Part shown: one piece after another, positions 14,332-57,505 of the stretch | Numbering within the stretch: position 1 is the stretch's first letter | How the letters are laid out: every line of letters starts with the position of its first letter | NCBI GenBank assembly: GCA_903883645.1 | Contig: CAISBR010000004.1 | Coordinates: 1 to 64,000 of the forward strand | DNA: 64,000 nt | Source of the DNA: an uncultured Myxococcales bacterium | GTDB taxonomy: Bacteria > Myxococcota_A > UBA9042 | Direction of reading: 5' to 3' | Position numbers and translations under genes: made by a program | The notes under the pieces: generated by a model | Told to the model about the DNA's origin: nothing | Databases searched by the model: none | What the model saw: only the letters and a program-made list of their open reading frames with translations

Positions 14332-15861
14332 ATGCGCCTGCTTGCTGTTCGTTCCAATCCATTGCTCTGTCTCGTTGTCGCTTCGGCGCTCGCGCTGTCG
14401 TCGCTGGCGGCTGGCTGCAGCTCGAGTTCCACGGCGGCCGCGACCCCCGACGAGGGGACCACCGACGAGGGCGACGCCGAGCCGGGTGTCGACGGCAGCA
14501 CCGACAAAGGCGACACGCTCGTGGGCGACGCCAAGCCCGCCGATGTCGCGGTCAGCCCCGACGGCACACCCCTCGACACGACCGACGAAGACAGCCAAGT
14601 CGACGGCACGGACGACGACAGCGGCGTAGATGCGGCCGGTGATGCGTCGTCGACAGGCGACACCACCGACGCGGGCGCAGATACGGTCGGCGACACGGGA
14701 GGGCCTAAGATTATTCTGCCCGACTGTGCCATCGGCAGCTGCGCCAAGTGCTCGTACTGCCCGACCGCGCCCCTGTGCGTCGGCGGTGTCACGTACAACA
14801 ATGACTGCGACGCGATCTGCAAGCTTGACCTGAAAGAGGGCTTGGGGCCGATCCTCGACCAGGTCAAGAAGGGCGCCTGCCCCGAGTGCGCGGCGTGCGG
14901 CACTGAGACCATCAAGTGCAACACCCAGAGCCAGCACTGCGCCATTGGCGAAAACGGTGTGTTTGTCGACAAGACCACCTCGACCTGCCTCAAAGACGCC
15001 GACTGCGCTGCCGCCTATACCCAGTGCGCGACGCTCGAAGACGGCAGCAAGGTCGAGATCGACTCGCCCTGCCAGGCCAGCTGCCTCAAGCTCAAGACCG
15101 GCATCACCAACCCCACGCCCGGCGCCTGCAAGACCAAGTGCTCAGCGCCGCCAGCCAGCTGCCCCACGACCAAGCCGTCGTCGGCCGTGCCGTCTGTGCC
15201 CGTCTGCGCCAAAGAAGACGGCAAGTCGTACGACACCGCCTGCGCGCTGAAGAACTGCTCACTCGACGGTTGCTACGCCACGGGCGAAACCGCGGCAACC
15301 CTGGCCTGCGGCACCGGTCTGACCAAAGAATGCGACGGCGAGTGCTTTGCCGATGCCTCGAAAGTCAGCGCCACGGCAGCCAATTGCCCCAAAGACTGCA
15401 ACTCGGTCTGCGGCGTGCTGCCCACCGGCCGCGGCAAATCGTTCCGCAACGAGTGCCTGGCCACCAACGCCGGCGCCAAGGTTAAAGACTGCACCGGCAT
15501 CACCGCTACCCCTGACGACAAGTGCGCCGCCGACACGCTGTACAGCAACCGCGGCTGCTGCGCCGACGTCAACTACACGCTCGGCGGCATCAAGCAGGTT
15601 TGCGCCAAGAAGGTCGACCCCGCGGGCGGCCCTGAGCTATGGGTAACCTTTCGCAATACCAACGAGTTTAAGTGCCTGACTACCGGCCAGACGGGTTGGG
15701 AGCAGCAGTACTACGGCCCCTGCCTGTGCAAATGCTCCGACGTAGAAAAGCTGGTCTGCGGCGACAACGGCCAGACCTACCTGAACCAGTGCGTCGCCGA
15801 GTGCTACAACAAGTTGCTCATGCCCGGCTTTACCACCAAGCCCGGCTCTTGCACGCCGTAA
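14332..15861 (+). CDS. Lipoprotein with Asp/Thr-rich linker and multiple Kazal-like Cys domains
   Basis: Lipobox LAAGCSSSS; Kazal-like PLCVGGVTYNNDCDAIC, PVCAKEDGKSYDTACALKNC, KLVCGDNGQTYLNQCVAEC. Confidence 0.7.
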   Translation: MRLLAVRSNPLLCLVVASALALSSLAAGCSSSSTAAATPDEGTTDEGDAEPGVDGSTDKGDTLVGDAKPADVAVSPDGTPLDTTDEDSQVDGTDDDSGVDAAGDASSTGDTTDAGADTVGDTGGPKIILPDCAIGSCAKCSYCPTAPLCVGGVTYNNDCDAICKLDLKEGLGPILDQVKKGACPECAACGTETIKCNTQSQHCAIGENGVFVDKTTSTCLKDADCAAAYTQCATLEDGSKVEIDSPCQASCLKLKTGITNPTPGACKTKCSAPPASCPTTKPSSAVPSVPVCAKEDGKSYDTACALKNCSLDGCYATGETAATLACGTGLTKECDGECFADASKVSATAANCPKDCNSVCGVLPTGRGKSFRNECLATNAGAKVKDCTGITATPDDKCAADTLYSNRGCCADVNYTLGGIKQVCAKKVDPAGGPELWVTFRNTNEFKCLTTGQTGWEQQYYGPCLCKCSDVEKLVCGDNGQTYLNQCVAECYNKLLMPGFTTKPGSCTP

Positions 15862-35191: not shown

Positions 35192-36415
35192 ATGGAATTG
35201 CTGAGGTCGTTGCCAATGCCGCGTTGGGCCGCTATTGCCGGGGGACTTGGAGCGGGCGCGCTGGCGGCGCTGCTGGTCAATGGCCTACAACCGAGCAAGA
35301 TACTTGACAAAACCTTGCCGATGCAGGCGATTTCGGAGCTGGATGGCAGGCTGAGCCAGGTTTGGCTGCAGTACTCGGCCGCGGCGCAAGCGGTGGTGGG
35401 GCCGGCGCAGCTCGAGTTCGTGCGGGCGCTGCCGGCGACGACGGCGCAGGTCTGGACGGTGGCGCGCGGCGAGGAAGCCAAGCAATTACGGAACTTTCTG
35501 AGCCATGGCGGGGTGACGCTAAACGCCCAGTCCCAGGTGATCGAGGTGCCCGGGCCGCTGACGCCGTGGACCCGCGATCGGGCCCTGGCACTGCGCCGCG
35601 GCGGGCAGTTGGCGCTGCTAGTGCCGCCGGAACCGGGTGAGAGCTGGCCCGAGCGGCAGGGCGACTGGCACGCCGTGCAGTGGCTGGCAAGCGGGCGGCA
35701 GGGGACAAAGAGCCTAGAGCTGCCTATTGATTTTGACGCGGGCGACCTGATCTTGAGCGACGAAGCGACGCTGTTTGACGCCAACTTACTGGCCAAAAAC
35801 CGTGGGCGCGGTTTTGCGAATTTGGCGGAATTGGCCACGGCCGTGGCGGGTTGGACCGGGCGGCCGGCGCTGGCTTTGGGGCACGACGAGGGCGATGTGC
35901 CGCGCTACCACATGGCGATGTACGTGATGCCGCTGGGGCACAAGCGAGTGCTGGTGGGTGATCCGCAGCTGGGGCGCGCACTTACTGGGCCTAGGTGGCA
36001 GCCCGGCGACCGCTCGCCCGACGACGATAGCCTGCTGCTGGCCGACGATTCGACGGTGACTCAGGCGCGTTTTGACCGTGCAGCCAAAGACTTGCAAGCC
36101 CAAGGTTGGGCGGTGACGCGCGCGCCGGTGGTCGCTTTTGACGACCGCACCTACCTAAGCTACACCAATGTGGTCGCGGAGATCGGCGCTCAGGGGCCGC
36201 GGGTGTACCTGCCGCACTACGCGAGCGCGACCGACGCCGCCGATTCGGTGCTTGGCCGCCTAGACGCTGCGGGGCGTGCGCCGTGGCAGCGTGCGGGGTT
36301 CGCCGTCGTGCCGATTCATGTGGCCGGAGTGTGGCGACATCACGGAACAATCGGCTGCTTAGTCAATGTGTTGTGGCGCGGATCGCTGCCCGCAACGCCG
36401 GCAGTGTCGCGCTAG
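35192..36415 (+). CDS. Membrane-anchored agmatine deiminase/peptidylarginine deiminase-like (guanidine-modifying superfamily) protein
   Basis: TM IAGGLGAGALAALLVNGL; PWTRDRAL, FDAGDLILSDEATLFDANLLAKN, YHMAMYVMPLGHKRVLVGDP, GTIGCLVNVLWR resemble WxRD / GGD / HxDM / GxxHC motifs. Confidence 0.5.
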   Translation: MELLRSLPMPRWAAIAGGLGAGALAALLVNGLQPSKILDKTLPMQAISELDGRLSQVWLQYSAAAQAVVGPAQLEFVRALPATTAQVWTVARGEEAKQLRNFLSHGGVTLNAQSQVIEVPGPLTPWTRDRALALRRGGQLALLVPPEPGESWPERQGDWHAVQWLASGRQGTKSLELPIDFDAGDLILSDEATLFDANLLAKNRGRGFANLAELATAVAGWTGRPALALGHDEGDVPRYHMAMYVMPLGHKRVLVGDPQLGRALTGPRWQPGDRSPDDDSLLLADDSTVTQARFDRAAKDLQAQGWAVTRAPVVAFDDRTYLSYTNVVAEIGAQGPRVYLPHYASATDAADSVLGRLDAAGRAPWQRAGFAVVPIHVAGVWRHHGTIGCLVNVLWRGSLPATPAVSR

Positions 36416-36519
36416 GTGCGGTGCATCGCAGCAGGCGATTCTTGTGTCCGTGCCGCGGTCTGGGTAGCATGGCGGTAGCGGCTGGCGGCACAGGCACGCG
36501 GCGCCAAGGCGCAGTCAAT

Positions 36520-39500
36520 ATGCAAGGCCAGCACGGTCGGGGTCATTCTTTGAAGTACTTGTCTGTGATTAAGCACTTTACGGCCATGGTGGCGCTGGCA
36601 GCCCTAGCGGCCGGCTGCAGCGAAAACGTTGTCACCAGCGGCAGCAAGGCCTTGAGCGACGCCAAAGCCGACCAGCAAGTGGTCGATCTGCCGCTGGCCG
36701 CCAGCAGCGATCAAGCGGCGTGGTTGTGCCCGGGCGGCTATGGCTGCGCGTGCGAAAACGACGCTGCGTGCCCCAGTTCGGGCCTGTGCGTCGCCGACGG
36801 CAAGGGCCCGGCACACTGCGCGGTACCCTGCCCCGAGGGCTACTGTAGCGACGGCGAGGTGTGCCGACCGCTGCCCAGCGCGAAAGATGGCGGCAACTGG
36901 TGCATCGGCAAGACGGCCCACCTGTGCGATCCCTGCGCCACGACTGCGGATTGTGCCATTGCCGGCCACCCGCAGGCCCGCTGCGTCGACTATGGCAGCG
37001 ACGGGCACTTCTGCGGCCTAGCCTGCCAGGGCGATGCCGAGTGCGGCGCGGGCTACCACTGCGGGCAAGTGAGCACAACAGATGGCAATTCGGCCATGCA
37101 GTGTGTCAAGAGCGGCGTTCAACCGGGCCAGCTGGGCGTGTGCGAGTGCAGCGCGCGTGCCAAGAGCCAAAAGCTTGAAACAGTATGCGGCGTAGGTACT
37201 TGCAAGGGCAAACGCAGCTGCAGCGACGCGGGCTTGGCGGCGTGCAGCGGCGCGGCACCGGGCAACGAAGAGTGCAACGGCCAAGACGACGACTGCGACG
37301 GCCAGACAGACGAGACCAGCTGCAGCGACAACAACCCTTGCACAATAGATAGTTGCGACCTATCCAAAGGCTGCAGCCACGCGCCCGCCGACAGTTTGCC
37401 TTGCTCCGACAAGACGGCGTGCACCGAGGGCGATGCCTGCAAGAACGGCGCGTGCCAGCCAGGCCCCGAGGTCAACTGCGACGACGCAAACCCATGCACC
37501 ATCGAGACTTGTGACCCCATCAAGGGTTGCCAGACCAAGTTCAGCGACGGCAAGGCCTGCGACGACGGCGATGCCTGCACCAAAGACGAGGCGTGCAGCA
37601 GCGGCGCGTGCGCCAGCGGCAAGCCACTGATCTGCGACGACAAAAACCCTTGCACCGCCGACACGTGCAGCGCCGGTGAATGCACCGCCACGCCGGTTGA
37701 CGGCGCACCCTGCAGCGACGGCAGCGCCTGCACGGGCGCCGACACGTGCGCGGGCGGCAAATGCGCCGGCACCACGCTGGTCTGCGACGACAAAAATGCC
37801 TGCACCATAGACAGTTGCGACCCTGCCAAGGGCTGCATCTATCTGCCCGGCCCCGCCACCGCCTGCGACGACGGCAACTTGTGCACCACCGGCGAGACCT
37901 GCCAAAGCGGCAACTGCACCGGCGGCACGACGCAAGCGTGCGCCAACGACAACGCGTGCGCCACCGCCGCGTGCCAGCCCGCGACCGGACTTTGCGCCAT
38001 CAAAAAGAAGGCCGACGGCACCCTATGCAGCGACGGCAAGACCTGTACCGCCGAAGATCATTGCGCTACGGGCGCTTGCGTGGCCAAGCTAAGCTGCGAC
38101 GACAAGGACGCGTGCACCGCCGACCTCTGCGGCTTGAACGGCAACTGCACCCACGTGCCCATTACGACGGGGAACTGCATACCAGCCGCCTGCGTCGGGG
38201 TCGACTGCGATGACAAAAATGGTTGCACGATCGATGGTTGCGACGGCAGCGGCTGCACCCACACCGCGGCAGTGGGCCAAAGTTGCGACGACGCCAGCCT
38301 CTGCACGGTGGGCGACGTCTGCAGCCAGCAGGGCAAGTGCGCGGGTGCCAGCGTGATCTGCGGCGACGATAACCCTTGCACAACCGATAGTTGCGACCCA
38401 CTCAAGGGCTGCAGCAACACCGAGAACAGCCTGCCTTGCGACTTGGGCGGCTGCCAGGCGGGCGCGTGCACTGCGGGAAGCTGCGTGGGCACGGGGCAAG
38501 TCGGCTGCGACGATAAGAGTCCTTGCACGAGCGACAGTTGTGAGGCCAGCGGCTGCGTACACACCCCCACCGGCGACGGCACCGGCTGCGACGATAGCGA
38601 CGCCTGCAGCAGCGGCGACACGTGCAAAGGCGGGGTATGCGCCGGCACCGCGCTCGATTGCACCCTGCCCGGCAACCCTTGCGCCGTTGGCCAATGCGAG
38701 GGCAGCCCCGGCCAATGCACCGTAACCAAGCTAAACGACGGCACATCGTGCGACGACAGCAACACCTGCACCAAGGCCGACAGCTGCGCAAATGGCGCTT
38801 GCGGCGGCAGCGCGGTCGACTGCGACGACAAAAATGCTTGCACTACAGACAGTTGCGACAAGACGGCTGGCTGCCAACACGCCAACGCCAGCGACGGCAG
38901 CAGCTGCAGCGACAGCGACGCCTGCACGGTCAGCGACGCCTGCACCAGCGGCACCTGCAGCGGCACGGCCAAGGTCTGCGACGACAAGAATCCTTGCACC
39001 AGCGATGGTTGCGACCTCTCGGTCGGCTGCACGGTCGCGGCAGTGAGCGATGGCCAAACCTGCGACGACGGCGACACCTGCACCCTGAGCGATGCCTGCC
39101 AAAGCGGCAAATGTACAGGTAATCTTGGCGCAGACGCGGTCAGCTCGCTAGCCGGTGCGGGCAGCTCGGGCTACATAAACGGCAAGGGCGCGGCGGCCAA
39201 GTTCACCCTGCCCTCGGCCATCGCAGTGGGCGCGGACGGCACGTTGTACATCGCAGACGCCGCGGCCAATGGGGCGTATATCCGAAAAGTACTGCAAGAT
39301 GGCACTGTTACCAACCTTGCCGGCAAGGGAATCGACGGTTTTGCCGATGCCAGCGGCGCTTTGGCCCAGTTTTGGAACCCCGCCGGCCTCGCGGTCGATG
39401 CCTCGGGCACGGTCTACGTGGCTGACCGGTTTAACCAGCGTATTCGCAAGATTACCGCAATTGGGGTGGTCACTACGCTCGCTGGCGACGCGGCCGAGCC

Positions 39501-40152
39501 GGGCTTCTTGGATACCAAAGCCATCGGCGGCTACCAAGACGGCCAAGGCACGGCGGCGCGCTTTGACGAACCCGCCGCGATCGCGCTGGGCCCCGACGGC
39601 AAGCTGTACGTCGCCGAGGCCGCCAACCACAAGATCCGCGTGGTCGATAGCGACGGCACGGTCACGACCCTCGCCGGCAGCAGCCAAGGCTACCTCGACG
39701 GCACGGGCACTAGCGCCAAGTTCGACGCACCGCAGGGCATCGCTGTGGCGGCGAACGGCACTGTCTACGTCGCCGACACGGGCAACAACCGCATCCGCGC
39801 CATCAGCGGCGGGGTAGTAACTACCTTTGCCGGAACGGGAATCTACGGATACGCCGACGACCTGCTGCAAAACGCCTGCATCGCCGCCCCAGCCGGCATG
39901 AGCATCGGCAGCGACGGCACGCTGTACGCAACGGACGCATTCCACACCATCCGCGCGCTCAGCAGCACGGTCGTGACGACACTGGCGGGCATCGGCGGCG
40001 CGTCGGGCTACCTGGATGCGGCGCCGCTGCAAGCGAAGTTCAATGGCCCGCTCGGCGTGGTGTGGGCGGGCAAGGGGCTGTGGTTCGTAGCGGATACGCT
40101 CAACTTCCGCGTGCGCAAGCTTCTTTCGCCCACGCTGGCTTGCAAACCGTAG
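36520..40152 (+). CDS. Lipoprotein with about 12 Cys-rich CDDxNxCTxDxC modules and C-terminal NHL-type beta-propeller
   Basis: Lipobox ALAALAAGCSEN; repeats CDDKNPCTADTC..., CDDGDACTKDEAC...; C-terminal FTLPSAIAVGADGTLYIADAAANGAYIRKVLQDGTVTNLAGKG NHL repeats. Confidence 0.8.
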   Translation: MQGQHGRGHSLKYLSVIKHFTAMVALAALAAGCSENVVTSGSKALSDAKADQQVVDLPLAASSDQAAWLCPGGYGCACENDAACPSSGLCVADGKGPAHCAVPCPEGYCSDGEVCRPLPSAKDGGNWCIGKTAHLCDPCATTADCAIAGHPQARCVDYGSDGHFCGLACQGDAECGAGYHCGQVSTTDGNSAMQCVKSGVQPGQLGVCECSARAKSQKLETVCGVGTCKGKRSCSDAGLAACSGAAPGNEECNGQDDDCDGQTDETSCSDNNPCTIDSCDLSKGCSHAPADSLPCSDKTACTEGDACKNGACQPGPEVNCDDANPCTIETCDPIKGCQTKFSDGKACDDGDACTKDEACSSGACASGKPLICDDKNPCTADTCSAGECTATPVDGAPCSDGSACTGADTCAGGKCAGTTLVCDDKNACTIDSCDPAKGCIYLPGPATACDDGNLCTTGETCQSGNCTGGTTQACANDNACATAACQPATGLCAIKKKADGTLCSDGKTCTAEDHCATGACVAKLSCDDKDACTADLCGLNGNCTHVPITTGNCIPAACVGVDCDDKNGCTIDGCDGSGCTHTAAVGQSCDDASLCTVGDVCSQQGKCAGASVICGDDNPCTTDSCDPLKGCSNTENSLPCDLGGCQAGACTAGSCVGTGQVGCDDKSPCTSDSCEASGCVHTPTGDGTGCDDSDACSSGDTCKGGVCAGTALDCTLPGNPCAVGQCEGSPGQCTVTKLNDGTSCDDSNTCTKADSCANGACGGSAVDCDDKNACTTDSCDKTAGCQHANASDGSSCSDSDACTVSDACTSGTCSGTAKVCDDKNPCTSDGCDLSVGCTVAAVSDGQTCDDGDTCTLSDACQSGKCTGNLGADAVSSLAGAGSSGYINGKGAAAKFTLPSAIAVGADGTLYIADAAANGAYIRKVLQDGTVTNLAGKGIDGFADASGALAQFWNPAGLAVDASGTVYVADRFNQRIRKITAIGVVTTLAGDAAEPGFLDTKAIGGYQDGQGTAARFDEPAAIALGPDGKLYVAEAANHKIRVVDSDGTVTTLAGSSQGYLDGTGTSAKFDAPQGIAVAANGTVYVADTGNNRIRAISGGVVTTFAGTGIYGYADDLLQNACIAAPAGMSIGSDGTLYATDAFHTIRALSSTVVTTLAGIGGASGYLDAAPLQAKFNGPLGVVWAGKGLWFVADTLNFRVRKLLSPTLACKP

Positions 40153-47343: not shown

Positions 47344-48123
47344 ATGATCGAACCAATTCTTGTGGGCGCCGGGCGGATTGGCCTGGCCTTGGCGCGGCGA
47401 GCCGAGACGAAAGGCACGCCCACACAGCTACTTGGCCGGCACGACCGTTGGGATGTGCTTGACCAGCCGGCCGGGCAGCCGATCGCCCTATGTGTGCGCA
47501 ACGACGACTTGGCAGTGGTGCTGCCGCGCATCCCCCAGCATCGCCATTGCGATCTGTTGTTTCTGCAGAATGGGATGTTGCGCGATTGGCTGGCGAAGCA
47601 GGGGCTGGCCCAGGCGAGCCGCGGTCTGCTGTTTTTTGCTGTAGCCGACCGTACTTGTGACCCGGCGCCCGGCGGTGTCAGCCCGCTATGGGGCCACCAT
47701 GCCCAAGAGTTTGCCAACTGGCTGAACGCGCTCGACCTGCCGGCCGCGGCGGTAACGGCGCAGGAGTTCGCCGACATTGAACTCGAGAAGCTGCTTTGGA
47801 ATTGCTGCCTTGGTGTGGTGTGCCAGGCGCAGCACTGTACGGCAACAGAGGCCGCAACGGTGTACGCCTCACAACTAGCTGACTTAGTAGCCGAACTGGC
47901 GCAAGTGGGCCGCCCGGCGCTGCGGGCGCAGGCAGACAATGAGGCATTAACCCAGCGAATTATCAGCTATAGCCTGCAGCTTGGTGATTATCGCGCCGCC
48001 GTCAAAGAATGGCCTTGGCGCAATGGCTGGTTCGTGGCCGAGGCCAAGCGGCGCAACATGGCTTGCCCACTGCATGATCGGCTGCTGCACCAGGCGATGG
48101 GCGAGAGTGCTGGCGCGGTCTAG
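47344..48123 (+). CDS. Ketopantoate-reductase-like NAD(P)-binding oxidoreductase
   Basis: N-terminal IEPILVGAGRIGLALARRA Rossmann; ELEKLLWNCCLGVVCQ as in the 6PGDH-like C-domain. Confidence 0.55.
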   Translation: MIEPILVGAGRIGLALARRAETKGTPTQLLGRHDRWDVLDQPAGQPIALCVRNDDLAVVLPRIPQHRHCDLLFLQNGMLRDWLAKQGLAQASRGLLFFAVADRTCDPAPGGVSPLWGHHAQEFANWLNALDLPAAAVTAQEFADIELEKLLWNCCLGVVCQAQHCTATEAATVYASQLADLVAELAQVGRPALRAQADNEALTQRIISYSLQLGDYRAAVKEWPWRNGWFVAEAKRRNMACPLHDRLLHQAMGESAGAV

Positions 48124-48485
48124 GGTTTGCAATAGCCCTTGCCGTTGCAGCCGGCGCCACTTGCTCCGCCCGGGCAGTCGGCGGCAGTTTTGCACGGCAG
48201 CGTACAGCGTTTGATGCCATCGCCGTAGGCAAAACAGGTCATGGCCGACGGGCAAACGCCCGCTGCGGGGCACGCCTCGCCAAAGCCCGCTGGGCCCAGG
48301 TGATCCCCGGCGCCGGCATCGGCAGCCGTGCCTGTGGCCGCATTGGCCAGGGCCGTGGCGTCGGTAGCGGTCGCGGCGGGTTGGGCGGCAGTCGATGCAG
48401 ACTCGGTCTTGGCGCACCCAGATAGTGCCCAGCTCGCCAACGCCCCCAGCAGCAGCCCTTGCAGTACCTTGTTTACCCGCCTCAT
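48120..48485 (-). CDS. Small lipoprotein with CPGGASGAGCNGKGYCKP C-terminal module
   Basis: MRRVNKVLQGLLLGALASWALSGCAKTES lipobox; C-terminal Cys module shared with the 51134-53296 gene. Confidence 0.75.
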   Translation of the reverse strand: MRRVNKVLQGLLLGALASWALSGCAKTESASTAAQPAATATDATALANAATGTAADAGAGDHLGPAGFGEACPAAGVCPSAMTCFAYGDGIKRCTLPCKTAADCPGGASGAGCNGKGYCKP

Positions 48486-49255
48486 CGCGCCCCCTTGCCG
48501 ACCCCGCCGCCCACGACGAGCAGGCAGCCGGCGTCTTGGATATCGCCGCCCTTGCTGGCGTTTCGCCCCGTTCCGCATTGCGCGCCGAGCCACAGCGGCC
48601 CCAGTGTGCGCCGTGCACCAAGGTGGATGTGGTCCGCTGTGCCCTCGCCACCGGCTAGGACAGCGCTGCGCACGCCCCACGACTCGGCCGAAATGGTCCA
48701 CACATCAGTTAGTTGCCAGGCCGCCGCAGCTTCGTAGCGAGTCCGGCGGTCGTCGCCCGTCAGTCCGTCGATCGCCAGCACGGCCGAAAGATGCACCCGC
48801 CCGAACCGCCCCGCCACACCCGCGCCCAGTTGTGCCGTCGACGGCCGCGTCGCCTGCAGGCGTACCCGGGCGCCCGCCGTCAAGAAGGGGTGCCAGTTCT
48901 CGCCGACCGGCAGCACCACCGTCGCCAGCGGCGCTAGGCCCGCCACGCGCACATCGCTGCTCGAGAGTTGGCGAAAAGCGCCCTCTAGGCTGACTTGCAG
49001 CGGCCCAACTAGCCCCGCGCGCAGGCTAAGCCGTTCGTTTACGCCCTGATACTGCCCCGTGCCGCTGCCCACCCCACCCTTGACGGGCGAGAGCGGCCGC
49101 ACCACTTCGGCCCCCAGGCTGGATTGAACCTCGAGCGGTCGGAGGCTGATGGTGTCTTGCACGCGCACATAGGCCGGAGCATCGGCATACGCCGTCGAGC
49201 CAGCGACCGCGCTGACTAGCAGGACTGCAAAGACGAAGGCACCGCGCGTCGCCAT
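48482..49255 (-). CDS. Outer-membrane beta-barrel-like protein
   Basis: Signal peptide MATRGAFVFAVLLVSAVAGSTAYA; alternating beta-strand pattern; ATGA overlap with downstream lipoprotein. Confidence 0.6.
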   Translation of the reverse strand: MATRGAFVFAVLLVSAVAGSTAYADAPAYVRVQDTISLRPLEVQSSLGAEVVRPLSPVKGGVGSGTGQYQGVNERLSLRAGLVGPLQVSLEGAFRQLSSSDVRVAGLAPLATVVLPVGENWHPFLTAGARVRLQATRPSTAQLGAGVAGRFGRVHLSAVLAIDGLTGDDRRTRYEAAAAWQLTDVWTISAESWGVRSAVLAGGEGTADHIHLGARRTLGPLWLGAQCGTGRNASKGGDIQDAGCLLVVGGGVGKGAR

Positions 49256-49262
49256 CGCCGTC

Positions 49263-51002
49263 TTACTGCTTGATGCAGTAGATGAGACCTACATAAGGCG
49301 GCAAGTGATTGGTGAAATTGGTCCACGTCCACGTGTTTTGGCCGCCCGAGGCGACGGTCTGCTGCGACTCGCCCTGCCATTCGAAGCCGACGTAGCTGTA
49401 CGAACCCGGCGAGTGCCAAGTGCCCGGGCCACGCTGGGTGTAGCCGCCGATGCGGTAGGTGTGCGAGCCGCCCACGCTGCCGAGCGCCACTGTGCCACCC
49501 TGGGGCAAAGGACCGACGCCGAGGGCAAGGCGACCGCGCATGTCGGGGGTACCGTTTGCCCCATCCGCCGCCACCCAGCCCGCCGGGCAGGTATTCAGGT
49601 TGAAAGGCGCGACCATGCCCGACAAGAACGAGGCGCCGCCCACCGTCAGGCCGCCATCGACGATGAGGTCGCCCTTAATCTCGATCTTCTTGTTCGACAG
49701 CGTTTGGATGTTCACGGACCAGCTGAACTTGCCGTCGAAACCACCGGAGCCGCCACCCGATTTCAGGTCCTTGACCGTAATGGACCACTGCCCGGCGATA
49801 TCTTTGCCGACCCAGTCCAAGTCCATATTGCCAGAAACCAACGCCAAGTCTTTGTTGAAGTTGGTGGTCAGGGCCGTGCCGGTCTTGTTGCCGTTGTAAA
49901 GGACATACGGTGTCGCCATCTGCGGGCCATAGAGCTCGATGCGCACACCCGACATGTCCGAGTTGGTCACCTGCACGTTGATCCAAATCTTTTGCGCTTG
50001 GCCGATGCTCGGAAAGTTAAGCGTGTCGGTGGTGCCTGGGCCAAGGCCGTCTGGAATCACGATATTGCTCTTGCCGGCAGTGGAGTCTGTGAATTGATTC
50101 CAGATTAGACCGTTCGAGACCTCGTCGATCAAGTCTGGCGCGATGGCCGATGCGACGCACGCGTACGAGCCGTCGCTGTTGATGCCGTTCATAACGAGGC
50201 CGGTGCCGCAAGTCTTGCCGAGCTGGGTCGGCGTGGGCGTGCCGCTCAGGTCGGCATAGCTGCCGCTGGCGGCGACCTTGGCCAGGCTCGACGCTTTGAC
50301 GTAGCCCGCCAAGTCGGCACTTTTTGCGTATGCAGCGAGGTCGGTTAGCTTGGCGTAGCCACCTAAGTCGGTGAGCTTGGCGAACGCGCCGAGGTCGCTC
50401 GACTTGGCATAGGCGGCGAGATCGGTGAGCTTGGCGAGGCCGCTCAGGTCGGGACCGCCGTTCAGGTCGGTGAATGCTCCCGTGGTGGCCACTTTGGCAA
50501 GGTCAGATACCTTAGCGTAACCACTCATAATTTTTGGATCAACTTGGGCCGCCGTAATGCAGCCCGTGCAATCCATGCTCTCGGCCACGGCGGCGCGCAT
50601 GGCAAAGGCTGTAGCCAAAAGCGGTCGGCGCGGCAGTTCCGTATCGGTTCCCACTTGCAAACCAACCCATAGCGCGGCACCGGTCAAGACCGAGCCAGTG
50701 AGCGGCGACTTGGCGCCCAGAACGGCGCTCCATGTGCCAGCTTTGACGCCGACCGGGAGCGGGCCTTCCATCCAGATGGGGTTACCACCAGACTCATCTT
50801 TGTAAATCGCAAAGGTAAGCTGGTAATTACCGTCGGGAGCAGCACCTCCGGTCGAAGTCAGCGTACCTTCAATGCCGATGGTAGGGGGGACCGCTGCCTG
50901 GGCCGAGGCACTACCGAACAGGAGGCAGATCATGGCGACCTGCCAGCTCGCGCGCGCTGCCCAGATGCGCGCCGCCGTGGTCCAATTTCCTTTGCTTTCC
51001 AT
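49263..51002 (-). CDS. Secreted tail-fibre-like protein: AKLTDLAAY repeats, P/Homo-B-like domain, phage collar-like C-terminus
   Basis: Signal peptide to AQAAV; YAKLTDLAAYAKSSDLGAFAKLTDLGGYAKLTDLAAYAKSADLAGY repeats; IPDGLGPGTTDTLNFPSIG...GQWSITVKDLKSGGGSGGFDGKFSWSV; CPAGWVAADGANGTPDMRGRLALGVG...NHLPPYVGLIYCIK. Confidence 0.8.
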   Translation of the reverse strand: MESKGNWTTAARIWAARASWQVAMICLLFGSASAQAAVPPTIGIEGTLTSTGGAAPDGNYQLTFAIYKDESGGNPIWMEGPLPVGVKAGTWSAVLGAKSPLTGSVLTGAALWVGLQVGTDTELPRRPLLATAFAMRAAVAESMDCTGCITAAQVDPKIMSGYAKVSDLAKVATTGAFTDLNGGPDLSGLAKLTDLAAYAKSSDLGAFAKLTDLGGYAKLTDLAAYAKSADLAGYVKASSLAKVAASGSYADLSGTPTPTQLGKTCGTGLVMNGINSDGSYACVASAIAPDLIDEVSNGLIWNQFTDSTAGKSNIVIPDGLGPGTTDTLNFPSIGQAQKIWINVQVTNSDMSGVRIELYGPQMATPYVLYNGNKTGTALTTNFNKDLALVSGNMDLDWVGKDIAGQWSITVKDLKSGGGSGGFDGKFSWSVNIQTLSNKKIEIKGDLIVDGGLTVGGASFLSGMVAPFNLNTCPAGWVAADGANGTPDMRGRLALGVGPLPQGGTVALGSVGGSHTYRIGGYTQRGPGTWHSPGSYSYVGFEWQGESQQTVASGGQNTWTWTNFTNHLPPYVGLIYCIKQ

Positions 51003-51133
51003 GATTATGCTCCCGCTGGATTCGCCTTGACCGGCCTCAGGCGTATGGCTTTGAATACAAGACGGCCCGTACGCGCCAATCCCGCAGATTAGCGCCGCTT
51101 AGCAGACCTGGCAACTGCCAATGCGGACGGCGG

Positions 51134-53296
51134 TTACGGCTTACAGAACCCCTTGCCGTTGCAGCCGGCGCCGCTTGCACCGCCTGGGCAGTCCGCGGCC
51201 GAGGTGCACGGAATGGTACATAACTTTCCAATAGTAAACGCAAAACACACCATCGGCGCCGGACATACGCCGTTGGCAGGGCAAGGGTCACCAAAGCTTG
51301 CTGCCGACCCGCCGCAGTCACCCGGGCAGCTGCTGGCCGTCTCGCCCGAGTCGCATGTGCCGTTGCCGCACGCGGCGCTGACACACTGACCGGCGCTGCA
51401 TGTCTGGCCCGCGGCGGCGCAGTCGGTGCCACTGGTCGACCAGCCCGAGCCGTCGGCTAGGCAGACCTGCACGGTATTGCTGCTGCAGTTGGCGGCCCCT
51501 GGTGCACAAACCTGTGCTTGGCAGACGCCCGCTTGGCAGAATTGTCCGGTGCCGCAGGTTTGTAGCGCGGTAGGGCTAACCCCCAACGCATCGCACTTCA
51601 TTGCAACATTACCTTGACAATAAAGGGGATTTTGCGGGTCACACAGCAAGCTGACGCACGCGCCGGCCGAGCAGATCTGGCCGCTTGAGGTGCAGTCGCT
51701 GCCCCCGGATACAAAGCCCGAGCCGTCGGCGTTGCAGACGGTCGCGACCGTGCCATTACAGGTCAACTTTGCAGGATTGCATAGGATTGCCTGGCATCCC
51801 GGCGCGCCACCTTGACCGCTACCGCAGTAGGTGCTGGGTGGGCAGATCTGCCAGCTGAGCACCGCTGTGCCATCGCTGTTGCAGGTGCTGAGCTTGGCGC
51901 CGCTGCACGCCGTGGCCCCGGCCGCGCAAACTACATCTTTACACTGCCCTTCTGAGCACTTCTGCGCGCCGCACGCCTGGCCGCCACCCTGCCAACCCGT
52001 GCCCGAGGCGTTGCATGTCGCAACCACATTCTCTTGGCAAGTTGTTGAATTTGCACTGCAGACTAGAGGCAGACACGAACCGCCGGCACAGGCCTGCCCG
52101 CCGGCACAGGGGGCAACGACCGAACCTGACAGGCCATTCGCCCCGCACAGCACCACGTCGCCACCTACGCAATACGTCGTGTTTGGCGTGCAAGTGGTTG
52201 GAATGCAAGACCCCGCAACACAAACTTGGCCGCCGCACGCCTGGCCTGGACCACTTGGCCCCGAGCCCTGTGGGTTGCACACCTCGACCGCGTTGCCCAC
52301 GCACGTGGCCTGATTGGGCAGACACACCTGCTCTAAGCACGCGCCGCCGCTGCAGTAGTAGCCGGCGCCACAAGTCTGGGTCGCCCAAGCGGACTGGCCA
52401 TCGCTGGCGCAAACCATCACCTGATTGCCTTGGCAGCTCTGGCTTGCGGGCGCGCACAAAGTGGCCGCGCAGTGGTCGCCGAGGCACACTTCGCCGGGAG
52501 CACAGGCCTTGGTGCTGACCACCTTTAACCCATCGCTGGCACACACCTGCAACTGCGCGCCCACGCAACTGATTCCGGGCAAGCATGTCCAAGCCGCGCA
52601 CACCGGGATGGCGCCATCGAGAGTGCACGTGGACTGCGCCGGGCATGGATCGGGCGCGGACAAACTGCTGCCGTCGCTGTTGCAGGTCAGGCGCGCGTTG
52701 GCCTGGCAGATGCCTTGGCCGGGGCTGCAGATGTCGGTGGTGCACACGCCGGTGCCAGCGGGGCCAAAGGGCGCACAGAATTGACCGGGCGCACAGTCAA
52801 GCGATGCCAAGCATTTTGTGCACTTTCCCTTGCCTACGTCGCAATGGGGGGTGTCGCTCGGGCACTGGCCATCGCTGGCGCACGGCAAAAATGGCCGACA
52901 AAGGCCTGCGTCGCAGCTATGGTTGCTAGCGCAATCAGCGATCGTGGAGCAGGCAGTGAGCGGTAGGCAATGGTGGCCGATGCACTCGTGCTCGCCGCTG
53001 CATTGGGCGGCCGACATGCAGGCCACGCAACGACTGGTAATCGGGCTACAAATCGGCTTATCAGCCGGGCATTCACCGTCGCTGGCGCAGGGGATGCCGG
53101 TCGCTGTCGCGTCGCCCGCAGTGTCGCTACCTGAGACTTCGGCGCCCGCCTCACCCACTAGGCTATCGCTGACGGCGCTGTCGCCGGCCACCGAACTAGC
53201 AGGCGCGGCGGCTGGGTTGCTGCTACACGCCAACCCCGCCACCACAGTCAACATCGCCAGCGGCACAAGTTCAATAATTCTCTGCAATAGGCCCAT
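51134..53296 (-). CDS. Cys-rich tandem-repeat lipoprotein with shared CPGGASGAGCNGKGFCKP C-terminus
   Basis: Lipobox LTVVAGLACSSN; roughly 40-45 aa repeats (CVGNAVEVCNPQGSGPSGPGQACGGQVCVAGSCIPTTC / CVGGDVVLCGANGLSGSVVAPCAGGQACAGGSCLPLVC ...). Confidence 0.8.
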   Translation of the reverse strand: MGLLQRIIELVPLAMLTVVAGLACSSNPAAAPASSVAGDSAVSDSLVGEAGAEVSGSDTAGDATATGIPCASDGECPADKPICSPITSRCVACMSAAQCSGEHECIGHHCLPLTACSTIADCASNHSCDAGLCRPFLPCASDGQCPSDTPHCDVGKGKCTKCLASLDCAPGQFCAPFGPAGTGVCTTDICSPGQGICQANARLTCNSDGSSLSAPDPCPAQSTCTLDGAIPVCAAWTCLPGISCVGAQLQVCASDGLKVVSTKACAPGEVCLGDHCAATLCAPASQSCQGNQVMVCASDGQSAWATQTCGAGYYCSGGACLEQVCLPNQATCVGNAVEVCNPQGSGPSGPGQACGGQVCVAGSCIPTTCTPNTTYCVGGDVVLCGANGLSGSVVAPCAGGQACAGGSCLPLVCSANSTTCQENVVATCNASGTGWQGGGQACGAQKCSEGQCKDVVCAAGATACSGAKLSTCNSDGTAVLSWQICPPSTYCGSGQGGAPGCQAILCNPAKLTCNGTVATVCNADGSGFVSGGSDCTSSGQICSAGACVSLLCDPQNPLYCQGNVAMKCDALGVSPTALQTCGTGQFCQAGVCQAQVCAPGAANCSSNTVQVCLADGSGWSTSGTDCAAAGQTCSAGQCVSAACGNGTCDSGETASSCPGDCGGSAASFGDPCPANGVCPAPMVCFAFTIGKLCTIPCTSAADCPGGASGAGCNGKGFCKP

Positions 53297-53344
53297 GCCG
53301 CGTCGCCTGCGACGGTCGCCCCCGGCAACGCCCATCGCGCTACC

Positions 53345-56300
53345 TTACTTGCAGGTGGCGGCGCACGCGACGTCGATCTGGTAGTCCTCGACCGCGTCTT
53401 GGTAGCCGTCGACCACGATGAAGTACTTCTTGCCCTTTACGCCGGCGAAGGTCTTGGTGGCCGTGGTGCCCATCATCAGCGCGTGGCTGGTGCATGAGCC
53501 GGGCCCGCAGGTCTTGCTGCCATCTAAGATGAACAAGTCGACGTAGTTACCGCTCGTGCTCGACGTCTTCTTCAGCGTAACCGTCACATCGCCGGTGCAG
53601 GTGGCATCGTACGTGTAGGTGTACTCGGGGCCCGTGTAGTCGGCCTCGGCGCCGTCGGCGCACTGCCAGCTGTCGATCACATCGGTGCTGCCGGTTGTGC
53701 CGTTGTTGTACTGGTCGCTGCCACCGCAGGCCAGGCTGTAGTCAGAAACGCATTGCGGGGCGGCGACCTTGCAGGCGGGATCGGCCGCGCAATCTGTGTC
53801 GGCGCAGTCGGTTTGGCCGTCTTTGTCGTCGTCGATCTTGTCGCTGCAGTTGGTCTCGGTGGTGGGCGCGGCGCAGCTGCAGTCGACCTTCAGCGTATAG
53901 TTGCCGTTGTAGTTGTTGTAGCCGTCGGCGACCACGTAGTAGGTCTGGCCCTTCTTGGCGGTCCAGGTAGTTTTGCTGGTGGTGCTGCTCATCAGGCCGT
54001 GGACCAAGCAGGCATTGCTGGTGCAGGTCTTGGCGGCATCCAGCACGAACAGGTCGATGTAGCCCGAAGTCGTAGACGTTTTGGTCAGCGTGGCGGTTAC
54101 CGGCCCATCGCACGCGGCGACATAGGTGTACGTGTACTCCGAGCCAGTCTCGCCGGTCATGCTGCCGTCGGCGCACTGCCAGTCGCTCACCACCTTGGTC
54201 GAGCCGGTGCCGTTGTTGCTGTAGCTATCCGAATCGCCGCAGCTCATCGGGTAGTCGGCCTTGCACTGGGTGGCGGCGAGGCAGGTGGCGTCTTTGGCGC
54301 AGTCGCTGTCGGCGCAGTCGGTCTTGCCGTCTTTGTCGTTGTCGACCTTGTCGCCGCAGTTGGTCTCGGTGGCCGGGGTGCTGCAGGCGACGTCTTTGGC
54401 GCAGTCCGTGTCGGCGCAGTCGGTCTTGCCGTCCTTGTCGTTGTCGACCTTGTCGGCGCAAAGCACTTCCGTGCCGGCTACGATGCAGGCGGCGTCTTTG
54501 GCGCAATCGCTGTCGGCGCAGTCGGTTAGGCCGTCTTTGTCGTCGTCGACCTTGTTGGTGCAGCTGGTCTCGGTGGTGGCGCCGCACTTGCAGGTGGTCT
54601 TGATGCTGTAGTTGGCCGAGTACGCGTTGTAGCCGTCGACCACGATGCTCAACTTCTGGCCGTTCTTGACGGTGACGGTCTGGGTGGCGGTGGTGCCGCT
54701 CATCAGCGCGTGGGCGACGCAAGCGTTGCTGCCGCAGGCCTGGCCGCCATCGAGCAAGAACAGGTCTAAGTAACCGCTGGTGGTCGAGGTCTTGGTCACC
54801 GCGACCGTCAGCTGGCCGTCGCACGAGGCGGTGTAGTCGTAGGTGTATTCCGCGCCGGTCTCGCTGCCCATCGTGCCGTCTTGGCACACGTAGGTGCTGA
54901 CGACCTTGGTCGAGCCCGTGCCGTTATTGCTCCACGAATCCGAGCTATTGCACGCGAGCGGATAGTCCGGGACGCAGGCGCACGCACCCTTGCCCGAGCA
55001 GTCGGGGTCGGCGCAATCGACCAAGCCGTCGGCGTCGTTGTCGACCTTGTCGGTGCAGTTGGTCTCGCCGGCAGGCGCGATGCAGGCCGCGTCTTTGGCG
55101 CAGTCGGCGTCGGCGCAGTCGGTCTTGCCGTCTTTGTCGTTGTCGAGCTTGTCGGCGCACAGCGTCTCGGTCGTGCCGCCGGTGCAGACGGGGTCCTTGG
55201 CGCAGTCGCTGTCTAGGCAGTCGGTCTTGCCGTCTACGTCGTTGTCGATCTTGTCGCCGCACGCGGTCTCGACCGTGGGGGCGCAGGCCAAGTTGGTGGC
55301 GCAGTCGCTGTCGAGGCAGTCGAGCTTGCCGTCTTTGTCGTTGTCGATCTTGTCGGTGCACGAGGTCTCAACCGTGGGCGCGCAGGCCAGGTCCGCAGCG
55401 CAGTCGCCATCGAGGCAGTCGACCAACTTGTCGCCATCGTTGTCGATCTTGTCGGTGCAGTTGGTCTCTTTGCCGCCTTCGCAGCCGCACGTAATCTTGA
55501 GCGTGTAGTCGGCCGCAAAGCCCTGGTAACCATCGACAACTACAAAGTACTTGGCGTCTTTCTTGGCAGTAAAGGTCTGCGTGGCCTGCGTCGACGACAT
55601 CAGCGCGTGGGCGATGCACGACGACGAGGCGCAACCCTTGGCCGCGTCTAGGATAAACAAGTCGAGGTAACCCGCCTTGGTGCTCTGCTTAACCAGCGTG
55701 ACGACCACTGGGCCATCGCAGCCCGCGGTGTAGCTGTAGGTGAACTCGGCGCCGGTCTCGCCGTTGACGTTGCCGTCGGTGCACGCGTAGGCGCTGAGCG
55801 CGCTGGTCGAGCCCTTGGCGTCGCTGGTGCCCTTCTCGTTGCCGCCGCAGGTGGTGCTGGCCGCGTCGACGCACTTGTTGGCTGCGCAGGCGACGTCGGC
55901 CTTGCAATCGCTGTCGCCACAGTCGGTTAGGCCGTCTTTGTCGTCGTCGATCTTGTTGCCGCAGTTGGTCTCTTTGCCGGCGCACGCCGCGTCTTTGGCG
56001 CAGTCGCTGTCGGCGCAGTCCGTAGCGCCATCTTGATCGTCGTCGAGCTTGTCGGCGCAGTTGGTCTCGGTGGTGGGCGCGGTGCACTGCTTCTTGCAGA
56101 GCGTGCCGACTTCCTCGACACAGGTAACGTCCCAAGCGGTCTTGCAACAGAACGGGTCGGCCTTGCACACGGTCGCGGCGCAGGCATCGCAGCCGATGGT
56201 CAGCGGCGTGCCACTCTCGAGGCAAACATCGCACTTACTCGCGCACTTGCTGTCTTTGGCGCAGTCGCTGTCGGCGCAGTCGGTAAAGCCGTCTTTGTCG

Positions 56301-57505
56301 TCGTCGAGCTTGTTGCCGCAGTCGGCCTCGGCCACAAGCGCGCACGCGGGGTCCTTGGCGCAGTCAGTGTCTTGGCAATCGAACTTGCCGTCGACATCGT
56401 TGTCTTTGCCGTCGGTGCAATTGGTCTCGGTCGTCACGGTCGAGGCGCACGCAACATCGACGCTGCAGTCGTTGTCTTTGCAGTCCGTAAAGCCGTCGCC
56501 ATCGTCGTCGATGCTGTTGCTGCAGTTCTTCTCGGCGGTCTTGCAGGCATTGTCGGCGGCGCAGTCGGCATCGGCGCAGTCGGTCTGGCCGTCTTTGTCG
56601 TCGTCGACGCCGTCGGTGCAGTTCGCCTCTTTGGTGGGGTTGATCAAGCAAGCCGCGTCTTTGCCGCAGTCGTTGTCGGCGCAGTCGGTCTGGCCGTCGC
56701 CGTCGTCGTCGACCTTGTTGGCGCAGTCGATCTCGCTGCTGGGCTTCTTGCAGGCGTTGTCCGCGGCGCAATCGCTGTCGGCGCAGTCGGTAGCGCCGTC
56801 TTTGTCGTTGTCTTGCTGGTCTTGGCACGCCGTCTCGGGCCCTACTGACTTGCAGGCCGTATCCGACGCACAATCATTGTCAGCACAGTCGGTTAGACCG
56901 TCTTTGTCGTCGTCTTGGGCGTTGCCGCAGTTGGTCTCGGGGCCGGTTTGGCAGGTGCCGTTGGCCGTGCCCTTGCAAGCGCCCGCCGTGCAGGTGTCGT
57001 CGCTGGTGCACTTGTCGCCATCGTCGCAGGGCGCCTGGTTGTTGGTCGCCACGCAGCCGGTCTTGCTATCGCACTTGTTGTCGGTGCAGGGGTTGTTGTC
57101 TTGGCAACTGGTCGCGGTGCCGCCCTGGCACTTGTCGGATTTGCAGGTGCGGCCGGCAAAGCACTTGTTGCCGTCGTCGCAGGGGTCGCCCTCGGCCGAG
57201 GGGCCGGCCTTGCATACACCTGCGGCGCACCACGCTTTTTCGCACGCGGCGAGGTTGGTCACCTTGCCCACGCAGTCGTCGTCCGTCGTGCACCCGGCCG
57301 CCGTGTCGGGCTTGGTCGTATCGAGCTTGGCGGTATCGTTCACCTGGGTGGAGTCGCCCAGATTGACGCCCATGTCATCGCCCGCGACGTCTTTGCCGGT
57401 CGTCTGCTGCGTCTGCGAGGAGCCGGAGTCACCACAGCCGACGGCGACGAGGCCGAGCAGCGCAGTGAGAGCCAAGGACCAACGAATCGTACTGAAATTC
57501 ATCAT
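53345..57505 (-). CDS. Giant lipoprotein with 18 ETNCxDxxDNDxDGxxDCxDxDC repeats and four PPC-like beta domains
   Basis: MMNFSTIRWSLALTALLGLVAVGCGDSG lipobox; repeats and PPC-like YTYDYTASCDGQLTVAVTKTSTTSGYLDLFLLDGGQACGSNACVAHALMSGTTATQTVTVKNGQKLSIVVDGYNAYSANYSIKTTC counted by eye. Confidence 0.85.
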   Translation of the reverse strand: MMNFSTIRWSLALTALLGLVAVGCGDSGSSQTQQTTGKDVAGDDMGVNLGDSTQVNDTAKLDTTKPDTAAGCTTDDDCVGKVTNLAACEKAWCAAGVCKAGPSAEGDPCDDGNKCFAGRTCKSDKCQGGTATSCQDNNPCTDNKCDSKTGCVATNNQAPCDDGDKCTSDDTCTAGACKGTANGTCQTGPETNCGNAQDDDKDGLTDCADNDCASDTACKSVGPETACQDQQDNDKDGATDCADSDCAADNACKKPSSEIDCANKVDDDGDGQTDCADNDCGKDAACLINPTKEANCTDGVDDDKDGQTDCADADCAADNACKTAEKNCSNSIDDDGDGFTDCKDNDCSVDVACASTVTTETNCTDGKDNDVDGKFDCQDTDCAKDPACALVAEADCGNKLDDDKDGFTDCADSDCAKDSKCASKCDVCLESGTPLTIGCDACAATVCKADPFCCKTAWDVTCVEEVGTLCKKQCTAPTTETNCADKLDDDQDGATDCADSDCAKDAACAGKETNCGNKIDDDKDGLTDCGDSDCKADVACAANKCVDAASTTCGGNEKGTSDAKGSTSALSAYACTDGNVNGETGAEFTYSYTAGCDGPVVVTLVKQSTKAGYLDLFILDAAKGCASSSCIAHALMSSTQATQTFTAKKDAKYFVVVDGYQGFAADYTLKITCGCEGGKETNCTDKIDNDGDKLVDCLDGDCAADLACAPTVETSCTDKIDNDKDGKLDCLDSDCATNLACAPTVETACGDKIDNDVDGKTDCLDSDCAKDPVCTGGTTETLCADKLDNDKDGKTDCADADCAKDAACIAPAGETNCTDKVDNDADGLVDCADPDCSGKGACACVPDYPLACNSSDSWSNNGTGSTKVVSTYVCQDGTMGSETGAEYTYDYTASCDGQLTVAVTKTSTTSGYLDLFLLDGGQACGSNACVAHALMSGTTATQTVTVKNGQKLSIVVDGYNAYSANYSIKTTCKCGATTETSCTNKVDDDKDGLTDCADSDCAKDAACIVAGTEVLCADKVDNDKDGKTDCADTDCAKDVACSTPATETNCGDKVDNDKDGKTDCADSDCAKDATCLAATQCKADYPMSCGDSDSYSNNGTGSTKVVSDWQCADGSMTGETGSEYTYTYVAACDGPVTATLTKTSTTSGYIDLFVLDAAKTCTSNACLVHGLMSSTTSKTTWTAKKGQTYYVVADGYNNYNGNYTLKVDCSCAAPTTETNCSDKIDDDKDGQTDCADTDCAADPACKVAAPQCVSDYSLACGGSDQYNNGTTGSTDVIDSWQCADGAEADYTGPEYTYTYDATCTGDVTVTLKKTSSTSGNYVDLFILDGSKTCGPGSCTSHALMMGTTATKTFAGVKGKKYFIVVDGYQDAVEDYQIDVACAATCK

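Follow-up and report, generated by a model that had tools for sequence, protein, structure and literature searches.

The window analysed here, a stretch of 64,000 nucleotides from an uncultured Myxococcales bacterium (contig CAISBR010000004.1 of assembly GCA_903883645.1), carries five consecutive minus-strand genes, here named P1 to P5. The genes, the parts of them that are discussed below and the gene beyond P5 were as follows.

53345-57505, minus strand: P1, 1386 aa, lipoprotein; 18 repeats of the acidic double-disulfide type (NF033662) and four domains of about 125 aa, possibly PPC-like
51134-53296, minus strand: P2, 720 aa, 93-Cys repeat lipoprotein
51137-51307, minus strand: C-terminal Cys-rich domain of P2, common to P5 (71% amino acid identity; 73% over 158 aligned nucleotides)
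49263-51002, minus strand: P3, 579 aa, secreted fibre-like protein, with a base (about aa 30-458) common to at least 32 paralogues in its own genome
49266-49628, minus strand: tip of P3 (about aa 459-579), resembling a phage collar, without a similar partner among the 33 tips of its own genome and common to nine genes of a related genome, G009
48482-49255, minus strand: P4, 257 aa, porin-like, predicted beta-barrel of the outer membrane with 13 predicted strands
48120-48485, minus strand: P5, 121 aa, lipoprotein with a 57-aa Cys-rich C-terminal domain, which pairs with P4
47344-48123, plus strand: ketopantoate-reductase-like gene (PanE), convergent to P5, with a 4-bp overlap

P1 to P5 were taken as real genes because each of them has homologues, orthologues or paralogues. 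Their coordinates and their spacing (48, 131 and 7 bp between the first four genes, P4 and P5 overlapping by 4 bp) were as given in the first-pass annotation of the window, and so were the export signals on all five products. The lipobox core (PS00013) followed a hydrophobic N-terminus in P1 (VAVGC), P2 (AGLAC) and P5 (ALSGC), and the N-termini of P3 and P4 were of the Sec type without a lipobox; these signals were judged by pattern and hydropathy, not by a signal-peptide program. On the upstream side, a cyclophilin-type isomerase gene is divergent from P1 and is followed by polysaccharide-deacetylase-like and outer-membrane-protein-like genes, both named from sequence inspection only. On the downstream side, the PanE gene and a prolyl oligopeptidase gene were found. 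A promoter and terminator scan gave nothing above chance, and the Rfam search gave no match. Two further Cys-rich proteins are encoded on the plus strand of the window, at 36283-40152 (129 Cys in 1289 aa) and 14332-15861 (46 Cys in 509 aa).

P1 matched the acidic double-disulfide repeat NF033662 at 445 bits, compared with a cut-off of 41, in 18 stretches. P1 is like the NF033662 proteins in these repeats and differs from them in the four extra domains interleaved with the repeats, which were 47-51% identical to the first one. A profile of the 125-aa repeat gave a weak match in the PDB to 2luw, a metalloprotease C-terminal domain (E 0.0024), and P1 had no PPC match in Pfam at E <= 1. P1 had been described as a Ca-binding-like repeat/PPC lipoprotein; the lipobox and the repeats stood, the latter as NF033662, and the PPC part was weak. 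Full-length orthologues of P1 exist. The description of P2 as a Cys-repeat lipoprotein was in agreement with its 93 Cys and its lipobox core. P2 had no match in Pfam, NCBIfam and the PDB, and its relatives showed 43-50% identity across most of its repeat region. Furthermore, the domain formed by the last 57 aa of P2 recurs at the C-terminus of P5, and no further copy was detected in the genome at E <= 0.001. This common domain reads as a local duplication or conversion, and it is the one real link between P2 and P5.

The conservation of the gene order was studied in 22 genomes of the same family, namely the genome of the window and 21 others, each of a different species. The order P1 to P5 was found in none of the 21 other genomes. 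The first-pass annotation had named the lack of a conserved neighbourhood as one outcome that would speak against its proposal of a surface apparatus, and no such neighbourhood was found in these genomes. Orthologues of P1 were present in nine relatives. In eight of them (G001, G002, G003, G005, G007, G008, G013 and G019) the orthologue sat among other genes, and neither P3, P4 nor P5 lay next to a P1 orthologue in any neighbourhood read. The ninth, G004, is the nearest sister, in which the C-terminal half of P1 is 86% identical and several flanking genes are 80-84% identical, and the upstream side of its P1 matches the window. After P1, a same-direction gene with EGF and TSP3 repeats runs off contig C167 of this genome, and on contig C261 a TSP3/OmpA gene that starts off the contig adjoins the PanE gene. 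The two ends may belong to one giant gene that spans the assembly gap between C167 and C261. Since ends of surface-protein genes lie between P1 and PanE in G004, the contents of the site differ between the sister species. The gene ends found there in place of P2 to P5 include a TraB-like C-terminal OmpA region and CglD-like repeats.

P3 belongs to a large family. With its P-domain-like segment, 36 matches were obtained in its own genome, and 33 genes cover the base to its end, which puts the family in this bacterium at 33 genes or more. The base consists of an export signal, a head, a stalk of fibre-type repeats and a P-domain-like module. When the 33 members of the own genome were compared, the bases were similar in all 528 pairs, with a median identity of 47%; for the tips, 33 of the 528 pairs were similar, and the tips fell into 14 clusters. 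The recognisable tips were fibrinogen-like (fibrinogen_C/COLFI), TLDc and ALK/LTK Gly-rich, with the collar-like tip in P3, and the fibrinogen-like/COLFI tips were in the largest cluster, which has 13 members. In an alignment of 43 members from the own and related genomes, the base was well kept, with paired Cys and the motifs DG.Y, GTGL, EVSNGL.NQF and GKN..G.W. The family profile matched, mostly through its head part, 222 of the 386 genomes from the phylum at E <= 0.001, and the full P3-type base was concentrated in this bacterial family.

The proposal that P3 is a secreted fibre-like protein was borne out. P3 itself scored 17.0 of the 21 bits needed for the P-domain model PF01483, which 28 of the 43 family members matched at E <= 0.01 (best 1.2e-8), some of them above the cut-off. 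The tip scored 15.9 of 24 bits with PF07484, below the gathering score, and covered model positions 1-22 of 57 only; weak matches of the tip to a PHROG tail fibre (E 1.8e-5) and to tail fibres in the PDB (E 0.002-0.008) speak for the collar label. The stalk matched PHROG 30808 at E 2e-12, which is no more than suggestive of a trimeric beta-structured fibre. A single-sequence structure model of P3 (aa 29-579) had a pLDDT of 36 and was unusable, and a PDB search with the tip of one paralogue gave no match. A likeness of the family head to 3sik and 3sz6 was rejected, its E values of 5e-4 to 8e-4 being too weak to use. Giant Cys-rich repeat proteins of up to 1962 aa adjoin some of the P3-family genes (loci L033, L037, L038, L119, L121 and L123). 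A tie between the two was also rejected, as such proteins made up 8 of 60 neighbours compared with 6 of 94 background genes, and so slight a tendency does not carry the claim.

The tip of P3 and its base pointed to different relatives. The tip was 40-51% identical to those of the nine G009 genes, and the bases of the same genes were only 41-45% identical to the P3 base. The P3 base showed about 61% identity to members of its own genome and of G004 that bear other tips. On the base tree, P3 grouped with members of its own genus that bear four other types of tip (SH-aLRT 97), and a tree with all collar-tipped bases in one clade was rejected (log-likelihood 165.6 lower, p-AU 1e-5). By the evidence of the tree and the alignments, the base and the tip of P3 have clearly different histories. 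Either tip exchange or homogenisation of the bases by gene conversion could uncouple base from tip and leave the same tree pattern; recombination in general is favoured here as the cause, with the two routes not separated. The collar-tipped relatives in G009 occur in threes on each of contigs 65, 135 and 157, as strongly diverged copies.

P4 and P5 behaved differently from P3. P4 was found in 3 of the 22 family genomes, as a single copy in its own, and had no sequence-family match in Pfam, NCBIfam and PHROG. Homologues of P4 showed 27-44% identity and those of P5 46-59%. A model of P4 predicted from four sequences had 13 regular strands at a moderate pLDDT of 67, and all 50 structures listed as matches to it were outer-membrane barrels, mostly porins (NanC, OmpG and Omp32 among them), with a TM-score on the target of 0.63 and an E value of 6e-5 for NanC. 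The earlier naming of P4 as a barrel candidate was thus backed by its predicted fold, and that of P5 as a small lipoprotein by its 121 aa and lipobox core. Compared with small outer-membrane porins (NanC type, OmpG), P4 is alike in predicted fold and size, but it lacks a sequence-family match, and its strand number and pore are uncertain. On the strength of the model, P4 is probably a small outer-membrane barrel that would act as a diffusion channel and work with the Cys-rich lipoprotein P5.

The two genes recurred together, and without P1 to P3, in the MAGs Loc090721-8m_bin-517 (G009) and A14_bin-1730 (G010). On two G009 contigs the P5-like gene starts 16 bp after P4, and on a third, where the locus ends at the contig edge, the order is P5-like gene, TupA-like binding lipoprotein, P4. 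The same kind of lipoprotein also stands before P4 on contig 57. Downstream of the pair, contig 3 carries an ArsR-type regulator, a cytochrome of the octahaem tetrathionate-reductase family (541 bits against a cut-off of 375) and YeeE-like genes for sulphur transport. In G010, two genes separate P4 from P5 within a single run, next to which is an XRE-PBP_like regulator. From these neighbourhoods it follows that P4 and P5 are a travelling pair and not part of a fibre machine. The neighbours of the pair on G009 contigs 57, 3 and 167, the TupA-like lipoprotein and, on contig 3, the cytochrome and the YeeE-like genes, are a lead for oxyanion or sulphur uptake.

Accordingly, the pair could serve as a unit that takes up or senses an inorganic oxyanion or a sulphur compound and lies beside P3 by accident. 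The TupA-like SBP_bac_11 lipoprotein adjoining two G009 loci, the cytochrome and YeeE-like genes downstream of another, the regulator in G010 and the small-porin-like model of P4 are consistent with it. However, the lipoprotein reaches only 45.7 of the 400 bits of the TupA model, far below the cut-off, the window has no such genes next to P4 and P5, and a single genome supplies three of the four neighbourhoods; this function is therefore considered somewhat unlikely. It concerns P4 and P5 only and is compatible with the explanation preferred below.

Another possibility is that P3, P4 and P5 form one adhesin or receptor unit, consisting of a collar-tipped fibre, a barrel and a Cys-rich lipoprotein, to which P1 and P2 are unrelated. 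Co-transcription of the three genes is plausible from their spacing alone: the 7-bp gap between P3 and P4 and the 4-bp overlap of P4 and P5 suggest one transcript, and the three products may therefore still act together in this bacterium. In addition, the closest relatives found for the P3 tip, P4 and P5 were all in G009. In that genome, however, no contig carries both collar-tipped fibres and a P4-P5 pair, and the pairs have as neighbours the TupA-like lipoprotein and, in one case, the octahaem cytochrome. A three-gene unit is thus regarded as unlikely.

The widest grouping would be a dedicated five-gene appendage, in which P1 and P2 form a mat stabilised by calcium and disulfides, P3 the fibre, P4 the exporter or anchor in the outer membrane and P5 an accessory lipoprotein. 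An apparatus of five genes had been proposed for the locus, and the observations behind the proposal were as claimed, with exported proteins encoded on one strand at short gaps; the common domain of P2 and P5 and the near contiguity of P3, P4 and P5 also point in its direction. The apparatus itself did not hold up. No relative possesses the set, P1 and the P4-P5 pair occur apart from each other, the sister species G004 differs at the site, and at least 33 P3 paralogues stand against a single P4. These numbers exclude P4 as a general exporter of the fibres, and P4 as an exporter of P3 fibres was rejected also in view of the 19 of 22 family genomes without P4. A five-gene appendage is accordingly very unlikely.

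Compared with these groupings, a composite locus, with three independent surface elements side by side rather than one machine, is judged the probable explanation. The elements would be P3, the P4-P5 pair, whose channel activity is predicted from the P4 model, and P1 with P2, the latter two as disulfide-rich lipoproteins, predicted to lie at the surface, at a site whose contents vary between sister species. Of most interest at the locus is the family to which P3 belongs, which amounts to a MAT-like repertoire of fibres in Myxococcales MAGs.

The P3 tip resembles the collar domain of phage tail fibre and collar proteins (PF07484, PHROG 8469 and 1800; PDB 9qgo, 6ov6), but P3 is a Sec-exported cellular protein with a tip below the Pfam cut-off, and its base is unlike phage proteins except for the repeat stalk (PHROG 30808). 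That P3 would be left over from a phage or tailocin and not be a cellular fibre is extremely improbable, as the matches of its collar-like tip and fibre-type repeats to PHROG families are set against a Sec-type N-terminus, at least 33 dispersed paralogues, a base kept across the bacterial family and a family profile that found no relative in 2.9 million viral contigs.

A closer parallel to the P3 family is offered by the mosaic adhesive trimer (MAT) fibres of Bdellovibrio bacteriovorus, which are encoded as tens of secreted phage-fibre-like proteins per genome, with an invariant N-terminal part, mosaic C-terminal tips partly of known adhesive folds and evidence of tip exchange (PMC10769870). 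The P3 family is like the MAT fibres in its constant N-terminal part, its diversified C-terminal tips and its multiple paralogues (33 genes here). It differs in the P-domain-like module between stalk and tip and in its commonest tip, which is fibrinogen-like. Moreover, an S74 chaperone ends 13 of the 21 Bdellovibrio members (PMC10769870), whereas the whole genome studied here had no PF13884 match, and therefore at best the non-S74 type of MAT is matched. The P3-family profile found no MAT entry in the PDB, where the deposited MAT constructs are C-terminal parts (PMC10769870). No description of a family like that of P3 outside Bdellovibrio was found in the open-access literature searched.

By analogy with the Bdellovibrio work (PMC10769870), the P3-family proteins would be displayed at the surface as trimeric fibres that bind targets. 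Sec would export them, the head would be held at the outer surface, and the stalk and the P-domain-like module would project the tip outside the cell, where each tip would bind its own glycan or protein target. Recombination would then reshuffle the tips between the bases. It is suggested, tentatively, that this Myxococcales MAG group may possess a MAT-like recognition repertoire of its own, independent of or distantly related to that of Bdellovibrio, with some 30 fibre proteins or more in each genome, a distinct base of head, stalk and P-domain-like module, and recombining tips of animal-type folds (fibrinogen-like, TLDc, Gly-rich).

With the reading of the locus as a new appendage removed, effort on it can be saved. 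One kept fibre base with many exchangeable tips outside Bdellovibrio would be a natural library on how bacteria recognise cells or surfaces. Within it, collar-tipped P3 is a case of a tip and a base with different histories, and a repertoire of this type would allow one to ask whether the number of tips tracks the range of targets.
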